Part shown: piece after piece, positions 2,384 to 15,000 of the stretch
How positions within the stretch are numbered: position 1 is the stretch's first letter
Layout: each line of letters starts with the position of its first letter
Assembly (NCBI GenBank): GCA_009663005.1
Contig: VIGQ01002135.1
Span: 62,501-77,500 of the forward strand
Direction of reading: 5' to 3'
Origin: Actinidia chinensis
Taxonomy: Eukaryota; Streptophyta; Magnoliopsida; Ericales; Actinidiaceae
DNA length: 15,000 bases
Program-made: the position numbers and the translations under genes
The notes under the pieces: model-generated
The model's input: only the letters and a program-made list of their open reading frames with translations
Database searches by the model: none
What the model was told of the DNA's origin: nothing

Positions 2384-2563
2384 TGCTGAGGACATGGCTA
2401 CACAAGATCCGGAATTGCGGATCCAATTCAAGTTCCCATGTTGGCCCACTTACAAGAGCACGTGCCAAAAATTTCAAAATGCATTAAGTGGGTCTATTCA
2501 AGGGATTTGGGCTCAAACAAGCAATGGGGCCCCTTCATGGTGATGACAAAATACCGCCCTAAG
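2384..2563 (+). repeat. First piece of the plus element's 5' LTR
   Basis: It starts TGCTGAGGACATGGCTA and aligns through its length with the start of the intact-orientation 3' LTR at 12857-13037, sharing ACAAGAGCACGTGCCAAAA, TTTCAAAATGCATTAAGTGG and GGGCTCAAACAAGC. It stops at CCGCCCTAAG, where the minus-strand LTR begins. The rest of this LTR resumes at 7511 with CATAATAAGC, which is what follows at the same point of the uninterrupted copy (13033-13042). Confidence 0.9.
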
Positions 2564-3290
2564 TGATTACAACCCCGTGTCGTTTAACGAACCCCTTATC
2601 AACGTATTGTTGGCTAAGCACCGTTTACTTTCAGGTTTATATGGAAACCGCGACCAACACCTTAAAGGATGTGAACCTTGTATAAAGAGGACTCCACAAT
2701 CAATGGTGAAATACTCGATTGATCAGTCAAGAATGAACGCAAGAGAAATCTGATAAGTTCAAATTATTCTCCCTCAAAGGAAACAAAGATAAATCTCTCA
2801 CTCATTACAACTCCTTCCCCTCTTCAATGAAAGGAGCACAATTTATACTACTAAGGCCACAAAGATCAGCCTTAGTAATTCTTAAACTAAGAAAACTTTG
2901 GGCCTCAATTGTAAGGAAGTCAAACCTAACTTTATTCCCGTTAATTCAGCCTAAAAATTCTGGCCATAAGACAACTTCAATTTGCATAAAGACAAGCCAT
3001 GCATTAACCTCCATAATTTTAGAGCCCAAAGTTGTGCACAAGAATCCTCAATTAAGGAAGTCAGCTCCCCATTTGTCTATTGACTTCTGGCCTTGAATCA
3101 TACTATTATGGCTGGATATTTTGTTCATCACCATCAATGGCCTCCACTTGCTTGTTTGAGCCCAATCCCTTGAATCAGCCCACGTTAATGCATTTTTGAA
3201 ATTTTCTTGGCACGTGCTCTTAGTAATTGGGCCCAATGGGCTTGATTGGATCCGCATTCCGGATCTCGTTGTTAGCCATGTCCCTCATCA
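2564..3290 (-). repeat. 3' LTR of the nested minus element
   Basis: This is a full-length reverse LTR of about 727 bp. Its plus-strand edges are TGATTACAACCCC at 2564 and TGTCCCTCATCA ending at 3290, so on the minus strand it begins TGATGAGGGACATGG and ends with a TGTAATCA-like terminus. It matches the minus 5' LTR at 6757-7510 along its length, for example CGTATTGTTGGC, GGAAACCGCGACC, AAATCTCTCACTCATT and AAGGCCACAAAGATCAGC. Differences are mainly 1-2 base insertions and deletions. Confidence 0.9.
3048..3257 (-). pseudogene. pol: C-terminal Pol tail reading into the 3' LTR (CR-like tail)
   Basis: This is an open minus-strand stretch inside the 3' LTR. It contains GPITKSTCQENFKNALTWAD and then DSRDWAQTSKWRPLMVMNKI. 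The plus copy reads TRARAK at the equivalent place, so this copy appears to have an indel there. In several plant chromoviruses, notably the CRM lineage, the integrase C-terminus extends into the LTR and ends in a motif of this kind, thought to help target centromeric chromatin; that is family knowledge. That this copy belongs to CRM is inference. The first ATG seen is internal and not a real start, because the tail would be translated as part of the Gag-Pol polyprotein. Confidence 0.6.
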
Positions 3291-3311
3291 TTCTCCTCTT
3301 CTCCTCTTCTT
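3291..3311 (-). other. Polypurine tract of the minus element
   Basis: The plus strand reads TTCTCCTCTTCTCCTCTTCTT, so the minus strand is an uninterrupted purine run. It ends exactly at the first base of the 3' LTR. In LTR retrotransposons this tract primes plus-strand DNA synthesis. Position and composition match the plus element's tract at 12844-12856. Confidence 0.8.
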
Positions 3312-3829
3312 GAAAGAGGATTTGTCGCTCACATCAAGTCATCACCTACAACCAAATGACTCAAAATCAGAAACATTGAAGGAGCACTTACATTATATTC
3401 ACGCGGGGTAGTCAAGTTTGTATGCTGTCTTTGATTCGTTCCAAGACGTGGAACGGGCCATCCCTCTATAGTAGTAAACTTGGATTCCGCTGAGTTGGGG
3501 AATCGCTCCTTACGCATGTGTAAACTTCAAACCCAATCTCCAAGTTCAAAAACTAACTTGTTTTCCGCCCTTTATTGCTTGTTTCGCATATTGCTCATTT
3601 CTTCTTTCAATGTTGAGATTGCTTTCTCATGGATCTCCTTTAACAGTTCAGCTTTTCTTTTCCATCTATTCAAGCTCAGTCCAAAGGTAATGAGAGAAAT
3701 CCAAAGGAGTTTAACGGATTAAAACCATAAACAATCTCAAATGGTCGGAAAATTTAGAGTTGGCAGAGTGAAACAGAACGATTTATAATCATCTTTCAAC
3801 AGTGCCGGCAACAATCTTTCCCATGTTTT
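3312..3829 (-). pseudogene. pol: Integrase C-terminal region with GPY/F-type module (fragment)
   Basis: Minus-strand reading gives pieces of the Ty3/gypsy integrase C-terminus: MRKERFPNSAESKF near 3475-3517, then EYNVSA and VVGDDL near 3330-3395, with frameshifts between. RKERFP followed by a GPF-like segment and NVSxTFNVxDL is the standard arrangement of the GPY/F module downstream of the integrase core. Further upstream (3530-3829) are PFEIVYGFNP-like and KTWE-like stretches. The integrase zinc finger and DD(35)E core are absent because the deletion junction at 3826-3833 removes them. The fragment cannot encode a working integrase. Confidence 0.75.
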
Positions 3830-3833
3830 AAAA
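3826..3833 (-). other. Pol deletion junction with TTAAAA microhomology
   Basis: At TTTTAAAA the minus copy passes directly from the RT segment (FSKID, plus equivalent ending at 10524) to the integrase C-terminal segment (TWE..., plus equivalent from 12312). In the plus copy both breakpoints carry TTAAAA, at 10525-10530 and 12306-12311, which are 1781 bp apart. One copy of this 6-mer remains here. This is a classic footprint of microhomology-mediated deletion or template switching. Confidence 0.85.
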
Positions 3834-4340
3834 GTCAATTTTTTAGGAAATACACAAGACCATGCAATTCATCTAAGCATTCATCTCAAAAAACGATGAT
3901 AGGATACGATACTTTAAACCGTTATATTGTTTATTATGCTCGACAATCAACGCCCATTTCTCCATGTCCCCTCCTTCTTAGAACTAACAAAAACTGGAAC
4001 GGAACATAGACTCAGGCTTTCCATAACATCCTACTTTTCTAACAATTCACTAACTTGCAGTTGAAGCTCCTTGTCCGTCGTGGTTGCTCCTATGAAGCTG
4101 TCTGTTGAATGGAAAGCGTCGGGTAACAAAATCAATCTGATGCTCAAATTCCTCTAATGGAGGTAAATCATAGCGGCATCTCATCGGAAAGACGTCCTCA
4201 AACTCCTGCAACAGAGATAAACAGACAGGTATAACAGAGTCAAGTCCGTTGGTGTTAATAATGCCCTCCTTGTACAAGAGTACAATCATCGGCTGATATT
4301 GAAAACATTGCCTCTCCTTGATTTTCTTTGCCTTTTGCAT
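3834..4340 (-). pseudogene. pol: Reverse transcriptase N-terminal fragment
   Basis: The minus strand from 4340 downward encodes SVIPVCLSLLQEFEDVFP, then DLPPLEEFEHQIDFV, the standard opening of Ty3/gypsy RT. A frameshift just after EFEDVFP replaces the usual DEMP. Continuing to 3834 are KELQ, VPVFVSSKKEGTWR, a VDCRAIN-like segment with an indel, and a DELHG-VFSKID-like stretch. The reading stops at the deletion junction just after the first catalytic aspartate region. The YFDD catalytic motif and all of RNase H are missing. There is no plausible independent start; it would be part of a Gag-Pol polyprotein. Confidence 0.85.
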
Positions 4341-4870
4341 AAAATTCTTTTTTTCTCTCTTCTCTCTGTTTTTACCTCAATGGCCGGATCTAATAATTGC
4401 CTTTTCTCATCTTTTTTTCCTCGGCCTCATCTCTTCCTGTTTCACACTCTTTTTTTGTTCCCACCTATTTTTGTAATCTCACTTAATCTTCATGAACTTG
4501 TTTCGGTGATAAAGGTACAACAAGGGTTATGGGTCGTTGAATAAGTGCAAATGAATATTTATTCGTGAACCCATCATGCTTCATTCACCAGCCTATCGAA
4601 CTGCCATGGTTCGTCTACAACAAGTGCCCAGGCTTTGCCATCGGTACTACATCACACAGAACTTCATCTTCATATTTTATCGATTCTCCCTTCGGAACTC
4701 CACCACACCTTGTTTAGTCAACCCTCAACTCACCACTATTATTCCAACCATTGCAACGTATAAAGGCTTTGGTGCAATATCATTGGCAATCCTAATTTAA
4801 TCAACATGGTTGGCTTTGCACATTTCGTACAACTAACCACAATCCATATTAAACCTACATACCTTGTCCT
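4341..4870 (-). pseudogene. pol: Protease and protease-RT linker remnant
   Basis: On the minus strand 4590-4870 corresponds to the plus element's protease region (9540-9810). Matching segments include TAGTTGTACGA, ATTAGGATTGCCAATGATATTG, GAATAATAGTGGTGAGTTGAG and AAATATGAAGATGAAGTTCTG. The catalytic DGGSC motif seen in the plus copy is degraded here, with only the SC-like part (GTTAGTTGTACGA) recognisable. Next is the linker (about 4460-4590) with HDGFTNKY- and LVPL-like segments. 4341-4460 is a purine-rich stretch on this strand, equivalent to the KK/EE-rich linker of the plus copy. Repeated frameshifts rule out function as written. Confidence 0.7.
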
Positions 4871-5108
4871 TGGACATATAGCATCTAGTGTAAAAGATGT
4901 CTCTCTCTCCCCTCGTACTCTGCTCTGGTTCTCTCCTTAGTCGTTGGAACTTCATCTTCGTTCTTCAATTTTGCAAGCTCACGATCTCCTTGCCTACGTC
5001 CAACGATCGGAGCTAAATATTCCTCCTCAGAGGCATCCTCTCTAATGGAGAATGGATTCAGATCACTTCGTCCATCGGTCTCAATTTCTCATATCCCGCA
5101 TCACCATA

Positions 5109-5139
<31 letters not shown>

Positions 5140-5717
5140 ATGTCCCGCCTACCTTTACTTTAAGCATTTAATATCACATTATGGTAGGCTTGGGTTTCGG
5201 TGTCCATGACTTTCTTGTGCTTGGAAGCTCAGCTTGGTTTGGATATTGAGGACGTTTTGGGCCCTTCTCTTCTCTCTTTGGATAGTTCGATCTCCAAGAA
5301 TTGGATGCAGCTTGATGAAAGTCGTGTCTTGCCCTCCTCTTGAGCGTTGCTCACTTTTGACAGTCCTTTTGCACCATTTTCTTCTACTCCACATAATGTT
5401 GCAACTCAACCACCTTACAATCTCCTGATTTCGCCATTAAGATAAACGAGCATGGTTGCTTCTCGGTCTTCTTCGCACATTTGCCCTAATCATGACAATC
5501 TCCTATCTTTGTAATAGTCTTCCACACTTCGATTGCCTTGCGTAGACCTTGCAATTTTTGTACAAGCCTCTGTACGAAAATTGCTGGAATAAAGCCGCTT
5601 TCTCTCATCACGGACTTATGTCTTCCCACTTCGGCAATTTGGACCGTTCTCCATTCCGCTCCTGCATGGCTAACTGATTCCCCAACCAAATCCAGCATAG
5701 TCAGTAAATTTCATCGA

Positions 5718-5765
<48 letters not shown>

Positions 5766-6197
5766 ACTAGTTCCATCTTCTTTTCCCTTCAGGTAGCTCC
5801 TACAGGATACATATTTTCCTTGCAACTACGGAACCGTATCTTTAGTATAAAAAATACCGCTAAGTTTCATCCCCTTTGTTTCATCTCTGTACTATCTCGT
5901 CCATTCCTCCTACGACTATCCCGGAATCCTCCTCCTTCCTCGCATAACTCATCCCCCATAGTAAACTACTAACTTCTTCTCTAACATGGAGCCTCCCTCT
6001 CTCCTACGTGGCTCGTAGAACAGTTGTGGCTGCTCCGGCGCTGAGTTGCTTCCAATTGATCTAAGCGTTCATGCATTGTTCCAATTCCCCTCTCATCAGT
6101 CTTATCTCCCCTCCCCCACTAATTGCCTCCTTCCAACAGCTAGATCCGCTGGACTGGAAGAATCATCAGTAGTGCTTTTTATCTCGTTTGCAGACAT
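4871..6197 (-). pseudogene. gag: Gag remnant of the nested minus element
   Basis: The minus-strand ATG at 6197-6195 opens a reading MSANEIKSTTDDSSSPADLA, continuing to a TAA at 6104-6102 (31 codons). The plus copy has the equivalent ATG at 8561, which supports this start. Downstream the minus strand matches the plus gag core: CCGAAGCACAAAAGGTAAA, GATTTGGT near IWWDQL, TTCGTACAGAGGCTTGTACA, and GGCAATCGAAGTGTGGAAGAC. Gag forms the nucleocapsid shell in LTR retrotransposons. A zinc knuckle could not be found with confidence. The frame changes many times, so the remnant is non-coding as written. Its last part (4871-5100) is poorly conserved. Confidence 0.8.
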
Positions 6198-6743
6198 GTT
6201 TTCTCACAAATAAAGATTAGAAGAAAACAAAACAAACAAAACAAAAAAGGATCTCACCACACTCCCTTACGTGTTTTCACTCTAATAATGAATTCACTCA
6301 GCGCTCGGGTTTCACACGCAGTAATTTGGCTTAAACCTTCATATGTAATTACTTACCACTCTTGCCTCTTTTCACTGTGGTTTATTTCCTCAAAAGATTC
6401 TTACATCAAACTAATCAACAAATAATCAGAATTTCTTAGACGTCCAACGTTCCACACACCCGAAGAGAGAGTTCTTAGGTTCACACACGAAACGAATCAC
6501 TAAGAGACTGAATAACAAAGTAATTAGGACAAAAATATCAACACAGTGCCTACTATCAGAATTTTTTTTTCTTTTTGCTCGAATATTAATGCATGGAATC
6601 AATACTAACTTTTTTTCTTTTTTTTTCTTCTCTTTTTTGTTTTGTCTCTTCTTTTTTTTTTTTGACCTTTATAAATGTACTAGAATTCTGATCAATACGA
6701 AATTCAGAAGGCAAGGATAAATTAAACCTGATGTAGAGCCTAA
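6198..6743 (-). other. 5' leader of the minus element with long purine tract
   Basis: This stretch lies between the PBS and the gag ATG, about 546 bp on the minus strand. The plus strand at 6603-6663 is nearly all T and C (minus strand A/G). The plus element's leader has a shorter equivalent at 8146-8175. Shared segments include TGCATGGAATCA/TGATTCCATGCA and the ACTGTG-flanked AAGAGGC region. No gene is visible. Confidence 0.75.
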
Positions 6744-6755
6744 GCTCTGATACCA
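6744..6755 (-). other. Primer-binding site, initiator-Met tRNA type (minus)
   Basis: The plus strand reads GCTCTGATACCA, so the minus strand reads TGGTATCAGAGC, complementary to the 3' end of plant initiator-Met tRNA. It lies one base inside the LTR boundary at 6757. It marks 6757-7510 as the 5' LTR of the minus element and fixes the element's orientation. Confidence 0.95.
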
Positions 6756-6756
6756 A

Positions 6757-7510
6757 TGATAGAACCCCGTGTCGTTGTAACGAACGCCCGTCTCAAGTAT
6801 TGTTGGCGTAAGACCGTTCTACGTTCAGGTTTAGATGGAAACCGCGACCCAACACCTATAAAAGAGATGTGAAACCTTGTATAAAAAAAAAAATAAGGAG
6901 GGACGCACAATCAATGGTGAAATACCTCGTTGATAAGCACGAATGAACAGTCACAGAGAAATCTGATAAGTGTTAAATTAGTTCTCAAAAACATAGAATA
7001 AACAAAAGAGAAATCTCTCACTCATTCCACTCTCCCCTCTTTAATGAAAGGAGCCATTTTAATACTAATAAGGCCACAAAGATCAGCTTAGTAATTCTTA
7101 AACTAAGAAAAATTTTGCCTCAATTTAAGAGAAGTCAACCTACTTATCCCTTAATTTCAGCCTAAAATTCCGCCATAAGACAACTTCATTTCATAAGACA
7201 AGCATAAGCATGCATTAACCTCCATAATTTTAGCCCAAATTTGTGCAACAAGAATCCTCAATTTAAGGAACTCATCTCCCCATTTGTCTATTGACTTTCT
7301 TGGACTTGAATCATTGCTTATTATGGGCTTGATATTTTGTTCAATCACCTCAATGGGCCTCCACTTGCTTGTTTGAGGCCCAAATACCCCTTTATCAGCC
7401 CACTTAAGCCTTTTGAATTTCTTGGCACGTGCTCTCTTTGTAATTGGGCCAATGGGAAACTGAATTGGGCTGTCCGCATTCCTGGATCGCGTGTTACCAT
7501 GTCCTCATCA
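6757..7510 (-). repeat. 5' LTR of the nested minus element
   Basis: Plus-strand edges are TGATAGAACCCCGTGTCG at 6757 and CCATGTCCTCATCA ending at 7510. The length is about 754 bp, compared with 727 bp for its partner at 2564-3290. It abuts the PBS on one side and the remainder of the plus element's 5' LTR on the other. It contains an A-run (about 6883-6892) and an AAGGCCACAAAGATCAGC segment shared by all copies. Confidence 0.92.
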
Positions 7511-8053
7511 CATAATAAGCTGATTCAATTTCAAGAAAGTCAATAGACAAATGGGGAGCTGACTTCCTTAAATTGAGGATTCTTTTGCACAACTTTGGCT
7601 TAAATTATGGAGTTAGTCATGCTTTCTTTATAAATTGAAGTTGTCTTATGGGCAGAATTTTTTAGGCTGAAATTAATGGATAAAGTTAGGTTTGACTTCC
7701 TTAAATTGAGGCCAAAGTTTTTCTTTAGTTTAAGAATTTACAGGCTGATCTTTGTGTGTCCCTAGTCGTATAAATGTGTCCTTTCAATTTGAAGGGAGAG
7801 TTTGTAATGATTGAGAGTATTCTCTTATGTATCCTTTGAGACTAATTTGGAATTATCAGATTTCTCCTGTGTCGTTTCATTCTTGACTTATCAATCGAGT
7901 ATTTCACCATTGATTGTGGCGTCCTCCTTTATACCAAGGTTCCCATCTCTTTATAGGTGTTGGGTCGCGGTTTTCATCTAACCTGAAGTAGAACGGTCTT
8001 AGGCAAACAATACTTGAGACGGGGTTCGTTACACCGACACGGGGTTCGTATCA
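7511..8053 (+). repeat. Second piece of the plus element's 5' LTR
   Basis: It begins CATAATAAGCTGATTCAA, which matches the 3' LTR from 13033 onward rather than an LTR start. It ends GACACGGGGTTCGTATCA at 8053, the proper LTR end, three bases before the PBS. With 2384-2563 it makes about 723 bp, close to the full 727-754 bp of the family. It holds the region missing from the 3' LTR (about 7765-8010), including CCTTTATACCAAGG and CTCTTTATAGG, which could belong to the promoter; the exact TATA box is not clear. Confidence 0.92.
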
Positions 8054-8056
8054 GTT

Positions 8057-8068
8057 TGGTATCAGAGC
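8057..8068 (+). other. Primer-binding site, initiator-Met tRNA type (plus)
   Basis: TGGTATCAGAGC begins three bases after the LTR end at 8053. It is the standard plant initiator-Met primer site used to start minus-strand DNA synthesis. Together with 6744-6755 it gives two divergent primer sites about 1.3 kb apart. Confidence 0.96.
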
Positions 8069-8560
8069 TTAGGCTCTAACTCAGGTTTACTCTATCTTTG
8101 CTCTTCTTGATTTTCGTTTGATCAATCTAGTACATTTGTCAAGGTCAAAAAAAAGAAAAAAAAAGAAAAAAAAATTGTTATCTTGATTCCATGCATTAAT
8201 ATTTTGAGAAAAAAAAATTCTGATAGTAGTAACTCCGTCTTTGATATTTTTGTCCTATACTTTGGTTTATGCCCAGTCTCTTTGTGATTAGTTTTTCGTG
8301 TGAAACCTAAGAAATCTCTCTTGGGTGTGGGCGGACCGTGACTAATAAATTCTGATTATTTGTTTGATAAGAACTTTTTGAAGAAATAACCAGTGAAAAG
8401 AGACAAGAAGTGGTAAGTACATATTGTGGTTTTTTAAGAAATTACTGTGTGACACACGAGCGTTTGAGTTAATTCATTATTCTCGTGAAAACGAAGGAAG
8501 TGTTGTGAGGTCTTTTTTTGTTTTGTTTTGTTTCTTCTAATCTTTATTTTGATAGAAAAC
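8069..8560 (+). other. 5' leader of the plus element
   Basis: This is about 490 bp between the PBS and the gag ATG at 8561. It holds an A-rich tract (8146-8175, runs of A broken by G) and no supported gene. It mirrors 6198-6743, although the purine tract is shorter than in the minus copy. Confidence 0.75.
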
Positions 8561-9480
8561 ATGTCCCTCAAACGGAGTTAAAAGCACTACTGATGATTCT
8601 TCCAGTCCGCGGATCTAAAACTTTGGAAGAGAGCATTAGTGGGGGAGATAGAGGTCGATGATTAAGAGAATTGGAACAATTGCATGAACTCTTAGATCAA
8701 TTGGAGAACTCAGCGCGGAGCAAGCCACAACCTGTCCCCGAGCCCATATGAGAAAGGTAGCTCAGTTATTAATTACTATGGGATGAGTAATGACGAGGAG
8801 GAGGATTCCTGGGTAGTCCGTAGGAGGAATGGACAAAATAGGAGAGATAGAAACCAAGGGGATGATAACTTTACGGTATAAAGAGGAAGTTTCCGTCTTT
8901 TCCCGAAAATCTGACCTGAAGTCCTACCTTGAATGGGAAAGAAATGGAACTCTTGTTGATTGTCACCAACTACTCCGAAGCACAAAAGGTAAATTAGCTG
9001 GCGATTGAAATTTACTGACTATTCTGTGATTTGGTGGGATCAGTTGTTATTGGCAGGCGGAATGGAGAACTCCAATTGCGACGTGGGAAGACATTAATTC
9101 CGTGATAGAAAGCGTTTTATTCCCAGCATTTTGGCTACATAGGCTTGTATCAAAAATTTCAAGGTCCACGGAAGGCAATCGAAGTGTGGAAGACTATTAA
9201 CAAGATAGGGAGATTGTCATGATTAGGGCAATGTGGAAAAAGACCGAGAAGCCTACGCATGATATTAAATGCTTTTAAATGTCCAAGGCATTGGACACAT
9301 ATAAGGTCAATGCCCGAATAGGCGGGTTTATGTGATGCGGATATGGAGAAATTGAGACCGATGACGAAATGATCTGAAATCCATGTCCTCCATTAGAGGA
9401 TTCCACTGAGGAGGAATATTTAGCTTCCTGATGCCGTTGACGTTAGTGGCAGAGGAGATCGTTTGAGCTTGCAAATGAAG
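8561..9480 (+). pseudogene. gag: Gag remnant of the plus element
   Basis: The ATG at 8561-8563 matches the minus copy's gag start, and both continue to a shared segment coding KSTTDDSSSP. The conserved Ty3/gypsy gag core follows in shifting frames: YLEWER at 8925-8942, NYSEAQKV near 8970, IWWDQL at 9029-9046, then RRNGE/TWED-like and QGxxKAIEVWKT-like stretches to about 9210. YLEWE...YSE..K...A...IWWDQ is a hallmark of plant Ty3/gypsy Gag (retrotrans_gag domain). No CCHC zinc knuckle is confidently visible in 9300-9480. In-frame stops and frame changes occur every 10-40 codons. Confidence 0.85.
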
Positions 9481-9545
9481 AAACGAAGATGAATTCAACA
9501 GCGAACAGCTTTTACACTAGTTCTATGTCAAGGACAAGGCATGTC

Positions 9546-9576
<31 letters not shown>

Positions 9577-9577
9577 C

Positions 9578-9612
<35 letters not shown>

Positions 9613-9646
9613 GGCCAATGATATTGTCATCCTAAGCCTTATAAAT

Positions 9647-9688
<42 letters not shown>

Positions 9689-9830
9689 TGTGGTTGGTGC
9701 GTTCCGAATCGGTAAATATGAAGATGAAGTTCTGTGTGATGTAGTACCGATGCAAAGCTAGCTGCGCCCTTGTTGTGAGGACTACCATGGCAGTTTCGAT
9801 ATTCGGGTGAAGCTGATTGGGTTCGAATAC
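9481..9830 (+). pseudogene. pol: Retropepsin-type aspartic protease remnant
   Basis: Codons 9549-9614 read VIIDGGSCTTVASTTMVDKL without a break. DGGS takes the place of the aspartic protease DTG/DSG catalytic triad, and SCTxVAS is typical of this group of plant Ty3/gypsy proteases. After LGWPM the frame breaks. A later segment (near 9700-9790) shows the KYEDEVLCDVVPM- and PWQF-like end of the domain in alternating frames. The protease would cut the Gag-Pol polyprotein during particle maturation. The minus copy carries a more degraded equivalent. Confidence 0.85.
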
Positions 9831-10140
9831 ATGTTCTTTGTTAACTTAATCAACGACGCCATAACCCTTGTACCTTTAATCACCGAAACAAGTTCATGCA
9901 GACAAGTGAGATTTACAAAAGAGAGTGAACAAAAAAAGATTAAAAAAGAGGAGAGGCCGAGAAAAAAAGAGAGAAAAGGCAATTTAGATCCGCGTGAGTA
10001 AAAACCGAGAGAAAACAAAGGAATTTTTATGCAAAAGAAAGAAATCAGCGATCAATGTTTTTAAATCATCCTGATGATTGTACCTTGTACAAGGAGCATT
10101 TATTAACACAAACGTACTTGACTCTGTTATACCTAGTTCT
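9831..10140 (+). pseudogene. pol: Protease-RT linker region
   Basis: This stretch reads AITLVPLITETSS followed by a lysine- and glutamate-rich run, equivalent to the HDGFTNKY-TITLVPMTPKQV linker seen clearly in the 702-1103 relic. The charged stretch around 9915-9980 matches the purine-rich 4341-4460 region of the minus copy. 10066-10140 (GTACAAGGAGCATT...CTTGACTCTGTTATACC) matches 4226-4280 of the minus copy and leads into RT. No independent gene is present. Confidence 0.7.
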
Positions 10141-11090
10141 GTTGTATCCTGTTGCAGGAATTTGAGCGACGTTTTTTTCCCGATGAGATGCCGCATGGTT
10201 ACCTCCCATTCGAGGATCGAGCATCATCTTGATTTGTCCCCGGGCTTCCATTCCAACCAGACCAGCTTAATATGCGCAACCCCGAACGATGACAAAGGAG
10301 CTTCAAGGCAGGTTTAGTGATTGTTAGAAAAAGGGGTATGTTTAGGTGAAAGCATGAGTCCATGTCATTTTTCCAGTTTTGTAGTTCCAAGAGGAGGGAC
10401 TGGATAAGTGCCGTTGATTGCAGAGCAATAGCAATATAACGGTAAAGTAGCGTCATCCTATTCCTCGTTTAGATGTATGTTAGAATGAATTGCATGTGTT
10501 TCTTGTGTATTTTCTAAAATTGACTTAAAAGTGGATATCATCAAATCCGAATGAAAGAAGGCGATGAGTGAAAAACTGACATTCAAAACTAAATATGGAT
10601 TGTAACGAAGCGGTTAGTAATGCCATTGGTCTAACTAATGCTCCCGAGTACTTTCAATGCGTTTATGATCTATTTTGCGTTCATTTTATATCGGAAAATG
10701 TGTGTTGTCATATTTTGATGATTCCTCATATATAGCAAAAACTTAGAGAATATCATTACAACATTTATAATCTGTTTTAGAGTGCTTAGACAAGAAGAAG
10801 TTATTTGCTAATCTGAAGAAGTGTAACCTTGTGTCAGATAAACTTGATGTTTCTCTAGGCTTTGTTGTGAGTGCACCGGGCCTACATGTTGATGCGTGAG
10901 AAGATTACTTGCCATCCAAGAATTATCTGAGTCCCCCCCCCCCCCCCCACAACCGGAGGTAATGGGAGGAGTTTCATGGACTTGCTAGTTTCTTCTACTA
11001 CGACGGTTTTGTGAAAGATTTCATTCATCACATTTAAGTCGCACCACTATACGGAAGTAATCAAGAAAAATTGGGTTTTAAAGTGGGGAG
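10141..11090 (+). pseudogene. pol: Reverse transcriptase remnant
   Basis: Frames from 10152 read LQEFERRFFPDEMPHG, the usual Ty3/gypsy RT opening. VDCRA follows at 10413-10427, RHPIPRLD near 10450, FSKIDLK at 10513-10530 with the first catalytic Asp at 10522-10524, then SGYHQIRMKEGDE after a one-base shift. The catalytic YFDD motif is at 10711-10722, in the right place. Further on are LDKKKLFANLKKC- and DKLxFLGFVV-like segments (about 10785-10875), and FHGLASFY and FVKDF near 10975-11030. A 16-C run at 10933-10948 replaces part of the thumb/connection coding sequence. RT copies the element RNA into DNA. Frameshifts occur every 10-40 codons. Confidence 0.92.
10933..10948 (+). repeat. Run of 16 cytosines inside RT coding sequence
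   Basis: Sixteen consecutive C bases sit in an AT-rich neighbourhood, between a KVRAIQE-like segment and FHGLASFY. Family members normally encode a short WPxPxxxxxVRSF segment here. The G-rich minus strand could form a quadruplex. It could equally be an assembly or base-calling fault. The minus copy lacks this region, so it gives no check. Confidence 0.95.
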
Positions 11091-11560
11091 ACGAACAAGA
11101 AAGGCAATTTCAATTGGTCAAAGCCAAAGCTGACCACCTCCTTTATTATCTGTGCCCAATTTTGCTAAAATGTTTGAAATTGAATGTGTGCTTCATGTAT
11201 GGGTATAGGCGGCAGTTTTAAAATGCCAGATGGACGACCAATAGCTTACTTTACTCTTCAGTGAAAACTAAGTGGGGCAGCCTTAAACTACCCGACTTAT
11301 GATAGGATTTGTATGCATTGTTTAGGGCGTTGGGACATGGCGTCCCTACCTGGCATAGAGAATTCGTGATCCATACAGATCATGAGTCCTTGAAAATTTA
11401 AAGGCCAGCATAAACTTTAACAAAAGAAAAGACATGCCCGATGATGGAGTTCACTAGAGACAATGTCCGTAACGTTTATCCGATACAATCAAGGTAAGGG
11501 AAAACGTCGTTGTCCCAAGATGCACTTTCTCGCCCGGTACGTGTTGCTTTTCACTCTTAT
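11091..11560 (+). pseudogene. pol: RNase H domain remnant
   Basis: An intact 14-codon stretch at 11354-11395 reads HREFVIHTDHESLK, the strongly conserved RNase H segment of Ty3/gypsy Pol. Before it are FEIEC (about 11170-11185), where the catalytic CDAS reads CVLH owing to an indel, GRPIAYF (about 11237), LNYPTYD (about 11285), and RALGHGVPTWH (about 11320-11355). After it come the VRYKQGK- and ALSR-like pieces around 11480-11535. RNase H degrades the RNA strand of the RNA-DNA hybrid during reverse transcription. Frame changes and the altered first catalytic residue mark it as non-functional as written. Confidence 0.88.
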
Positions 11561-12843
11561 GCTAAATTACTGTTTTGAGCAAATTAAGGAATTATAATCA
11601 ACAGACCATGATTTTTGTGAAATATAAATTGCGCGAGAAGTGCTGCAAATGGAAGGTATATTTTAGGCATGATGGATTTCTTGTTTTCATGGACAAATTA
11701 ATGCGTGCCAAATTTGCTCTGGTGAGAGATTGCTGGTTTAGCAGAATCCCATGATGGAGGCTTGATTGGGACATTTTGGAATTGCTAGACTTTAGCTATT
11801 TGCAGGAACATTTTTATATTGGCCACATATGAAACGAGACATTGAGAGGATTGGGATGATGTTCACCTGTACGCCAGCCATTCTCCAAGTGCAACCAACG
11901 GTTTGTATACAATACTCCTCTTCCTATTCCAAGTGAACCATATGTATTGATATTTCAATGGATTTTGTGTTGGGTTTACTAGTTCTACACATGAGAAGAT
12001 TCATTTTTTGTTTTTGTGTACAAGATTTTCAAAAATGGCACATTTTTATCCATGTCAAAAACTGATGATGCTTCACATATTGCAGAAGCTGTTCTTTAAA
12101 GAAATTGTGCGTTTACATGGTCACCTAGAACATGTTTCTGATAGAGATGCTAAATTTTTTGAGTATTTCCTGGAAGACTTTTGGGGCAGAATTAGGAACC
12201 AAGTTTGTTTGTTTTCACTACTTGTCATCCTCAAACCGATGGTCAAACCAGGTAGTTAAATAGGACTCTATCTACTTTGTTGCGGGCAATTAATAAAAAA
12301 AAATATTAAAACATGGGAGATTGTTTGCAACATGTTGAATTTGCTTACATCTGTCTGTTCCTCTGGCGACTACATTTTCAACCATTGAGATTTTTATGGT
12401 TTTAAATCCTTTAAAACTCCTTATGGATTTATCTCCGTTACCTTTGACTGAGCATGTGAATTTGGATGGAAAAAAGAAAGGCTGAACTTTGTAAAAAACA
12501 GATCCATGGAGAAAGCAAAACTCCACATTGTAAAGAAGACTGAGCAATATAACGAAACAAGCCCAATCAAGGGCGGCAACAGGTATTTTTTTTGATCCTG
12601 GAGATTTGTTTTGGTTGACACATCGTAAGGAGCGATTCCCCCTCAACAGAAATCCAAGTTACCTACCTCCCACTACCTAGAGGGGATGGACGCGGTCCAA
12701 GTCTTTGAACGAATCAACGACAATGCATACAAACTGGGCTTCCCTGTTAATATATGTAAGTCTACCTTCAATGTTTCTGATTTGAGAGTCTTTTGTTGTT
12801 TAGGTGAATTTTTGGAACTTGATTTGAGGTACAAATCCTTTTC
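11561..12843 (+). pseudogene. pol: Integrase remnant with GPY/F module
   Basis: Pieces in order are: a GHFG/EHFY/HMKRD-like zinc-binding region (about 11755-11840), PLPIPSEP (about 11915), ISMDFVLG at 11952-11975 with catalytic Asp at 11961-11963, RFSKMAHF and LFFKEIVRLHG (about 12025-12120), and VSDRDAKFFEYF from 12134 with the second Asp at 12140-12142. DGQT lies at 12238-12249. The next codon should be the catalytic Glu, but a small indel gives R followed by a stop. The C-terminal part includes a PFEIVYGFNP-like piece near 12380-12420, KKKAEL near 12470, HRKERFP near 12624 and ERINDNAYKL at 12707-12736, then STFNVSDL, the GPY/F module. Integrase inserts the DNA copy into chromosomes. Confidence 0.9.
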
Positions 12844-12856
12844 AAGAAGAGGAGAA
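12844..12856 (+). other. Polypurine tract of the plus element
   Basis: AAGAAGAGGAGAA directly precedes the 3' LTR start TGATGAGG at 12857. It primes plus-strand DNA synthesis in this element class. Codons across it read EEEN, so it overlaps the end of the pol frame. Confidence 0.88.
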
Positions 12857-13037
12857 TGATGAGGACATGGCTAACACAAGATCCAGAATGCGGATCCAAT
12901 TCAGTTCCCATTGGCCCAATACAAGAGCACGTGCCAAAATTTCAAAATGCATTAAGTGGGCTGATTCCAGGGCTTGGGCTCAAACAAGCGCAAGTGGAGG
13001 CCCATTGATGGTGATGAACCAAAATATCCACCCATAA
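12846..13037 (+). pseudogene. pol: Pol C-terminal tail crossing the PPT into the 3' LTR
   Basis: A frame opening with EEENDEDMANTRSRMRIQF stays open for 64 codons with TRARAK and KWADSRAWAQTS inside it. It ends at a TAA at 13035-13037, within the LTR. This is longer than nearly any other continuous in-frame coding stretch of the element. The same tail appears in the minus copy (3048-3257). Overlap of the polyprotein end with the LTR and a basic TRARAK-type tail resemble the CR motif layout known from CRM chromoviruses. Assignment to that lineage is inference. The tail has no start of its own. Confidence 0.7.
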
Positions 13038-13347
13038 TAAGCAGGATTCAAGTCCCAAGAAAGTCATAAACAACTGGGGAGGCTGACTTCCTTAAAATTG
13101 AGGATTCTTGTTTTGCAACAACTTTGGGCTGAAATTATTGAGTTAATGTCATGCTTGTCTTTCTTAAATTGAAGTTGTCTTATGCAAATTTTTTAGGCTG
13201 CAATTACGGGATAAAGTAGGTTTTGACTTTCCTTAATTGAGGCCAAAGTTTTTTTTAGTTTACGAATTTACTAGGCTGATCTTGTGGCCTTAGTATTAGC
13301 AAAATACTTGATACGGGGTTCGTTACAACGACACGGGGTTCGTATCA
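12857..13347 (+). repeat. 3' LTR of the plus element, internally deleted
   Basis: It runs from TGATGAGGACATGGCTAAC to ACGGGGTTCGTATCA, 491 bp against about 727-754 bp in other copies. The missing part lies between CTTAGTATTAG and CAAAATACTTGA (about 13300-13305). It corresponds to roughly 7765-8010 of the 5' LTR, so about 270 bp including likely promoter sequence is gone. The ends are intact and the tandem repeat follows at once. Confidence 0.92.
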
Positions 13348-14330
13348 ACTTATACCAAGATTTGATTCAAAATGGACCAGGCATATGAACTTGGTCACGC
13401 ATATGCGTGGTCCATTTTGAATCAAATCTTGGTATAACTGATCAAGTTTACAAGATGGATTGTGTGAATCAAGTTGAACCCAACTTTGTTCGTGTTTGAT
13501 CATATTTGCTCGCGTGAATTGTTTCGAACAGAACTCGGTATGCGAACTTAACATGCGTATACGTGAATCGTTTGATCTGTTTGTTCGTGTTTGAATTGTT
13601 AAATCCAATACTAACATGCGTGACAGAGTCAGTTGGAATGGGTCAATTTAAATCTAAACTTGACATGCCTGACCATCTTCATTTGTTTGGGTCATTATGA
13701 ACCACAACTTGGTATGCATGACAAAGTTGGCCTGCGGGGGTCATTTTAAGTCGAGACTTTGTGTGGATGGCCTAAATGGCTAGCGTAGATCTAACCAATT
13801 TGGCCTTGTCGGATCGTTTTAAATCCCTACTTTGAATGAATGACAAATTTGACTTTAAACCAAAATGTACATCCGTGACCAACTTTTTTTGCGTGGGTCA
13901 TTTTGAGGCCAAAATTCTTGTGCGGACCAACTTTGTTTGGTGGGTTGTTTTTAACACCAACTGAATAATGTATGAACCAAATGGGTTAGCAAGTTGGCAT
14001 GTGTGTGACCGCATTTGCTTGCGTAGATCATTTCAAACAGAATTTCGTATGCATGACTAATGTGACTTTCATTGATCATTATGAATTGTAATTTGTTATG
14101 TGCAACAAAATTAGGCTTGTGTGAATCCTTTTGAACCCATCTTTGTTCATGTTTTACCAAGTTAGCTTGCGCGCTCCATTTTAAATCCACACTTTGTATC
14201 AGAGATAACAACCGCTTGGGTGGGACAATAACAATCCAAGCATGACATGGGGCCAAAGTTCGCTTGCACGGTAATTTTGAATCCAATGATGGTGCATGTG
14301 ACCAAGTTTGATCGGGTGCACTAATTTGAT
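13348..14330. repeat. Tandem repeat array, ~50-bp unit (right block)
   Basis: This is the clearest part of the array. GGTCATTT/GGTCAATT-type motifs start near 13639, 13689 and 13739, and again near 14026 and 14074, about 48-50 bp apart. Units again alternate TGACCAAGTTAGCTTGCGTG-like and CATTTTGAATCCAACT-like motifs. Most monomers run in plus orientation, but the first one next to the LTR is inverted. No supported gene is present. Confidence 0.82.
13350..13437. repeat. 88-bp palindrome at the LTR-repeat junction
   Basis: Arms at 13350-13379 and 13408-13437 are perfect 30-bp reverse complements (left arm begins TTATACCAAGATTTGATTC). Past a G/G mismatch (13380 and 13407) the pairing continues for seven bases, GCATATG at 13381-13387 with CATATGC at 13400-13406. 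The loop is 12 bases. It begins two bases after the LTR end. Confidence 0.95.
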
Positions 14331-14567
14331 AAGTCGCTGCGCCAAACACAGGTGGTTCTTTCTTGTCGTAAGTGAATGCAATTAAAAGTCCCGGAAATAA
14401 CGAATAATGAAGGAATTCATATATTGACGTGCTCATTTCAAATTTTGCTTTTTTTTATTCCCATCATCCGATAACCGTAGGATGATCCACAAGAAAGGTT
14501 GCAGGATTCTAATCTATGGGTTGGGTGGCTGGGTTAGCACCCCATCTCTTCTATGTAACCGAAACAG

Positions 14568-14590
14568 ATGCGCTGCGCTACCCAGCGCAT
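14568..14590. repeat. GC-rich hairpin in the insert
   Basis: ATGCGCTG (14568-14575) pairs with CAGCGCAT (14583-14590) around a 7-base loop. It overlaps the possible A box and so could be tRNA-like stem structure. A terminator is unlikely, as there is no T-run after it. Confidence 0.6.
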
Positions 14591-14634
14591 AACCTTGTCT
14601 CCCCTACCCCTTTGCTGGTTGTGCCATTACCAAT

Positions 14635-14649
14635 CGTGGGTAACCCACG
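14635..14649. repeat. 15-bp near-palindrome CGTGGGTAACCCACG
   Basis: The two 7-base arms are exact reverse complements around one central base (14642). It lies in the GC-rich part of the insert. Its function is unknown, and it could be chance. Confidence 0.6.
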
Positions 14650-14735
14650 GTCCGGCCACCCCTGACCTAATAAGAACGATTATCCTTTTGACCAAACAAG
14701 GACCAGCTTACTTACTTCTCGAGCAATAGTGTATG

Positions 14736-15000
14736 TGTGACGAAGGTTGTGGTTCATGTTGAAGACAAACATGGTACGGGGCCCAAATGGCTTGCACTGA
14801 TCATTGCTTGGTGCATCAGTTTTAATGTTTGAAAAAGTTGCCTTCGGTTAATCGTTTTGAACTCGAACTTGGAAAGCATGACAGAGTTTGTGTGGATGTA
14901 TTTGTGCCCAAATTTTTTTGCCTGGGACCATGTTGTCTTGGGTGGAACTTTCAAACACAACTTGGTAAGACCAAGGTTCCTTTGATTGATCATTAGGAAT
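14736..15000. repeat. Tandem repeat array resumes to window end
   Basis: Diverged ~50-bp units return: TGTATGTGTGACGAAGG, TGCACTGATCATTG, AATCGTTTTGAACTCGAACT, GCATGACAGAGTTTG and TTTCAAACACAACTTGGTAAG. They match the motif order of the blocks at 1-701 and 13348-14330. No gene is visible, and the array appears to continue beyond the window. Confidence 0.75.

Follow-up and report, generated by a model that had tools for sequence, protein, structure and literature searches.

Same-family nesting of long terminal repeat (LTR) retrotransposons has been published as 'autoinsertion', which, in the accessible portion of that study, is evident in some families and species, while most nested elements show no family preference (PMC6911290, Jedlicka et al. 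2019). According to the same portion, autoinsertion is commoner in Ty3/gypsy than in Ty1/copia elements, with Tekay and CRM among the families named, and nested insertions are rarest in LTRs and within the integrase domain. Nested pairs in the same and in reverse orientation are described there, with six Physcomitrella pairs of which the commonest, Phygy in Tcn1, is not same-family (PMC6911290). Same-family nesting has also been published as 'recently nested' LTR retrotransposons (Look4LTRs, PMC11020628). Here we describe a stretch of 15,000 nt from Actinidia chinensis (assembly GCA_009663005.1, contig VIGQ01002135.1, positions 62,501 to 77,500; hereafter the window), in which an LTR retrotransposon on the plus strand (the plus element) carries within its 5' LTR a minus-strand element of the same family (the minus element). 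As in the published autoinsertions, an LTR element sits in an older copy of its own family; the target here is a 5' LTR, and LTRs are among the rarest targets in the accessible portion of PMC6911290. Neither a split 5' LTR nor opposite strands are singled out in the accessible portion of the Look4LTRs paper (PMC11020628).

The second object of comparison is the CRM clade. The accessible part of one source gives a 5-bp target-site duplication (TSD) for CRM elements and, as criteria for CRM group A, an LTR of 299-1,225 bp with the ends TGATG and (T/C)ATCA and a polypurine tract (PPT) of 4-13 bp (PMC3059260). Group A elements are further described there with a primer-binding site (PBS) complementary to 12-18 nt of tRNA-Met and a polyprotein frame that enters the 3' LTR, and in a number of them the 5' leader contains an A-rich stretch; satellite arrays are the usual company of centromeric retrotransposons (PMC3059260).

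The split 5' LTR and the element within it

Comparison of the window with itself (self-BLAST) revealed one LTR family in four copies of full or partial length. Both elements are ordered LTR-PBS-internal-PPT-LTR, PBS and PPT standing for PBS-like and PPT-like stretches, and their 5' ends face each other, head to head. The features that define this architecture are the following (positions within the window):

2384-13347, plus strand: plus element, an LTR retrotransposon (self-BLAST)
2384-2563, plus strand: left piece of the plus 5' LTR, its first 180 nt (aligned to the unsplit LTRs)
2559-2563, plus strand: left TSD copy, a noisy reading with CTAA then G where CATAA is expected
2564-7510, minus strand: minus element inside the plus 5' LTR (self-BLAST, alignment of the LTR pieces, sequence letters)
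2564-3290, minus strand: minus 3' LTR, 727 nt
6757-7510, minus strand: minus 5' LTR, 754 nt (self-BLAST)
7511-8053, plus strand: right piece of the plus 5' LTR, the remaining 543 nt, beginning with CATAA (self-BLAST, alignment)
7511-7515, plus strand: right TSD copy, CATAA, exact
8054-12856, plus strand: internal part of the plus element
12857-13347, plus strand: plus 3' LTR, 491 nt, without a stretch matching about 7767-8008

In the self-BLAST, the left piece pairs directly with the start of the plus 3' LTR (2384-2553 with 12857-13026, 86%, E 7e-45) and the right piece directly with its continuation (7511-7766 with 13033-13294, 84%, E 1e-66). The right piece also pairs in inverted orientation with the minus 3' LTR (7511-8059 with 3110-2558, 83%, E 2e-140), and the two minus LTRs pair directly with each other (6760-7510 with 2568-3290, 82%, E 1e-168).

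The two LTR pieces were then aligned, one at a time, to the three LTR copies unsplit at the insertion point; of the left piece, 179 of the 180 nt were covered. In these copies the end of the left piece falls at LTR positions 181, 190 and 185 and the start of the right piece at positions 177, 186 and 181, an overlap of exactly 5 nt in all three; these are not independent trials, as the same two pieces were compared with three related LTRs. Local scores between pieces and LTRs ranged from 181.5 to 680; when the minus 3' LTR was shuffled 50 times per piece, they reached at most 27.5 (left) and 31 (right). At the split site, each of the three unsplit copies reads CATAA. The 5-nt overlap is the target-site duplication of the minus element's Ty3/gypsy integration. 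Moreover, the ends of the minus element coincide with LTR termini on both sides. The overlap, these ends and the element order are as predicted for a later integration into an existing LTR. From this anatomy we infer that the plus element is the older and that the minus element inserted later, an order that is well supported.

An earlier note on this DNA had read the plus 5' LTR as two pieces adding up to one LTR, with a whole minus-strand element of the same family, head to head and inserted second, lying between them. The self-BLAST pairings bear out the two pieces, and the inverted and direct matches confirm the shared family and the head-to-head arrangement; the pieces sum to 723 nt (180 + 543), compared with 727 and 754 nt for the minus LTRs. 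The proposed order, plus first and minus second, likewise agrees with the anatomy above. The note had named an overlap of the pieces, or a large gap relative to a full LTR, as grounds for refutation; the overlap found is only 5 nt, the size of a TSD. Two of its descriptions held in part. The plus 3' LTR is uninterrupted at the split point but not elsewhere, where 242 nt (matching about 7767-8008 of the 5' LTR) are replaced by 8 nt at 13295-13302. The minus element has both LTRs and the PBS-like and PPT-like stretches that the note had listed, but lacks 1.78 kb of internal sequence matching 10527-12305 of the plus element, the integrase core included.

The plus 3' LTR has probably lost its core promoter, because the missing stretch begins beside the TATA-like box of the 5' LTR. 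The plus element in turn lacks about 281 nt near the end of gag and has 7 nt there instead (self-BLAST). Both copies, as read, are defective, and the minus element would have needed help in trans if its integrase core was already deleted when it moved. The remaining features of the two elements are:

3291-3311, minus strand: PPT-like purine run of 21 nt adjoining the minus 3' LTR (by eye)
3831-3832, minus strand: junction of the 1.78-kb internal deletion, with TTAAAA at both matching places of the plus element
5177-5457, minus strand: 281 nt found in the minus and missing from the plus element (self-BLAST), apparently between gag-like and protease-like stretches
6744-6755, minus strand: PBS-like stretch TGGTATCAGAGC (sequence letters)
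7769-7775, plus strand: TATA-like TATAAAT in the right LTR piece (by eye)
8057-8068, plus strand: PBS-like stretch TGGTATCAGAGC (sequence letters)
8147-8174, plus strand: A-rich stretch in the leader after the PBS region, with a minus counterpart at 6610-6663 (as T)
10527-12305, plus strand: internal segment of 1,779 nt absent from the minus element, including an integrase-core fragment at 11951-12259
12629-12859, plus strand: integrase C-terminal SH3-like fragment, PF24626 (SH3_Tf2-1), E 1.9e-6, 28.4 bits, just under the 30-bit cut-off
12844-12856, plus strand: PPT-like purine run of 13 nt, AAGAAGAGGAGAA, preceding the plus 3' LTR

A run of 16 C at 10933-10948, in the plus internal region, is possibly a read error.

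Sequence noise and alternative explanations

Error-like differences dominate the sequence, which the earlier note had missed, as it had the internal deletions. The two minus LTRs differ by 35 substitutions, of which 6 are transitions and 29 transversions, and by 73 indel events, of which 62 involve one nucleotide. Transversions outnumbered transitions in all ten pairwise comparisons of copies, and indel events outnumbered substitutions in nine, the exception being 14 versus 17 (ratios 0.8 to 2.1). Pooling the three comparisons of LTRs within an element gave 13 transitions and 44 transversions, a ratio that lies below 1 (p 2.4e-5) and does not differ from that of random change (p 0.12). Ageing plant LTRs accumulate transitions in excess. 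The small differences between copies thus appear to be mostly uncorrected long-read error. Dating by LTR divergence was rejected on this ground: no age can be given for either insertion, and the broken frames are no proof of decay. In sequence with such an error pattern, LTRs should not be dated and pseudogenes should not be called.

Some of the differences shared between LTR copies are probably real. Nine substitution columns set the plus LTR pair apart from the minus LTR pair, while the two other possible pairings have 7 and 3. Gap columns favour the same grouping by 11 to 1 and 1, of which 5 are end effects of cutting the pieces and 4 more represent one event. For the right piece alone (its first part and last 45 nt), 7 substitution columns support the plus pairing against 2 and 3; three of these 7, which are also among the 9, are adjacent and probably one event.

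We hold with high confidence that a nested Ty3/gypsy insertion into a same-family 5' LTR, with a 5-bp duplication, is the best explanation of the locus. Several observations count against it. Of the two TSD copies the left one is imperfect, inspection by eye showed no TSD for the outer plus element, and the sequence has an uncorrected look. For the left piece alone, only 2 substitution columns support the plus pairing, against 5 and 0 for the others; 4 of these 5 contrary columns (of 7 overall) fall in one apparently misaligned stretch. As this pattern test is unfavourable, it is position and the TSD, not diagnostic bases, that link the left piece to the plus element.

Among the alternatives, an artefact is the least improbable, though improbable all the same: a read that folded back (missed adapter), or two family members joined as a chimera, would leave inverted copies, as the two arms around about 7418 are, and the error-like signature of the window and the palindrome with 38-nt arms after the 3' LTR would suit it. 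A fold-back read does not predict the 5-nt overlap, the minus-element ends at LTR termini or the order of parts in each element, and it was considered unlikely in view of the overlap and the block deletions. The arms differ by the 1.78-kb and 281-nt blocks, the ends of the minus unit lie on LTR termini, and both outer junctions fall at the same LTR position with the 5-nt overlap in three of three comparisons. Matches between the two flanks are, in addition, mostly direct in the self-BLAST, with one short inverted match listed (13353-13396 with 1347-1304).

Very improbable, in our view, is a joining of cDNAs, in which one cDNA of the family integrated into another before the two, as one composite, were inserted into the repeat region. 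This would yield the same anatomy, the 5-nt duplication included, and neither an outer TSD nor an age difference speaks against it. Two rare events would be required, and the plus 5' LTR does not share the deletion of the 3' LTR, which so most simply arose after integration. In the accessible portion of PMC6911290, nested pairs were probably not retrotransposed together, a statement that bears on a neighbouring question only. If true, cDNA joining would provide a path to inverted pairs of retroelements, each pair formed in a single event. Least probable of all is that ectopic recombination or an inversion brought together pieces of two elements that had been separate: recombination between a family's inverted repeats is possible and both elements carry deletions, but a 5-nt duplication flanking exact LTR ends is not expected from it.

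Coding fragments and the relation to the CRM clade

The coding remains of the plus element include an integrase core on the 3' side of pol, as in Ty3/gypsy retrotransposons. With the integrase-core fragment at 11951-12259, 22 of 23 candidates were found at E <= 0.01 (best 1.3e-12), and 14 of these 22 homologues carry PF00665; on the fragment itself the Pfam rve match is weak (E 0.23), as is its sole PDB match, Ty3 Gag-Pol (E 0.12). In 21 Pfam queries with small fragments, one of which (857-1135) lies outside the elements, only 12629-12859 gave E < 0.001. No reverse transcriptase (RT) domain was found among these queries, although inspection by eye picked out RT-like words; the Retrotrans_gag match was weak (0.065). 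Error-like indels obscure the reading frames of the elements. Matches to DUF4893, DUF3963, Phage_RpbA (0.0034), DUF4312 and DUF6198 were taken as chance. Searches of PDB with 12629-12859 and 10580-10735 returned no matches up to E 5, and the C-terminal integrase fragment had 9 candidates, none at E <= 0.001. The integrase fragment had no match in phages, 7511-8400 had none in plasmids, and an exact LTR 20-mer had none in viral_contigs or genome_contigs. Within the window, neither tRNA genes nor Rfam matches were found.

The LTRs resemble those of CRM elements. Three of the four start with TGATG, the fourth reading TGCTG, and three of the four end with TATCA, the fourth reading AATCA. Their lengths of 723 nt (in two pieces), 727, 754 and, after deletion, 491 nt lie within the CRM range. 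The 5-bp TSD (seen for the minus element only) and the A-rich leader stretch (8147-8174 and, as T, 6610-6663) also have counterparts in CRM. A purine run precedes the 3' LTR in both elements, with 13 nt in the plus element, whereas the 21 nt of the minus element exceed the 4-13 bp of CRM. After the 5' LTR of both elements stands TGGTATCAGAGC, which may be complementary to tRNA-Met. One frame starting from DEDMANTRSR is open for 59 codons in the plus 3' LTR and stops after 5 in the minus 3' LTR; in the 5' LTRs it is open for 52 (plus) and 54 codons (minus). Judged by these letters, both elements are probable, though unproved, members of the CRM clade: probable because the accessible description of CRM (PMC3059260) is matched by the LTR ends, the length of the TSD, the A-rich leader and the presence of a purine run before the 3' LTR, and unproved because the 3'-LTR frame gives a mixed picture and the minus purine run is longer than described.

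Flanking repeats, proposed history and meaning

The flanks of the plus element (1-2383 and 13348-15000) consist of degenerate repeats, some stretches of which are inverted. The word TTGAATCCAA, allowing up to 2 mismatches, occurs in forward orientation 18 times in the left and 12 times in the right flank, compared with means of 1.8 and 1.05 in 100 base shuffles per flank; reversed, it occurs 6 and 3 times. The strongest shared-word lags of the right flank, 47-50 and 93-97, give a unit of about 48 nt, and those of the left flank are mixed (126-129, 64-68, 193 and 47-48), all lags being given without a null. Tandem Repeats Finder reported 16 short arrays, none of about 48 nt. The left flank beside the plus element resembles the reverse complement of the right flank over a short distance (score 25, maximum 22 in 300 shuffles).

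A palindrome at 13350-13437, with arms of 38 nt and one mismatch, starts 2 nt past the plus 3' LTR. Over this short length its arms are more alike than the LTR copies of the window, and it adjoins an insertion end without a visible TSD. In the left flank, a remnant at about 700-1080 looks like a minus-oriented LTR that is more distantly related (765-908 with 2628-2766, about 70%), beside which 970-1078 resembles the minus internal sequence 4467-4578 (73%).

We propose that a plus Ty3/gypsy element, probably of CRM, sat in the degenerate repeat region first. Integrase later inserted a second family copy, slightly different and facing the other way, at about 180 nt from the start of the plus 5' LTR, making the 5-bp duplication CATAA. 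As the minus copy lacks the integrase core, an intact relative probably moved it in trans, or else the segment was lost later through a deletion between two TTAAAA words.

The nested insertion is real and ordinary in kind, as same-family nesting is already known. Its value is that it illustrates cleanly how an element can nest in an LTR of its own family, LTRs being among the rarest targets in the accessible portion of PMC6911290. Because the part of the plus LTR with the TATA-like box adjoins the minus 5' LTR head to head, divergent transcription from this site may be possible.

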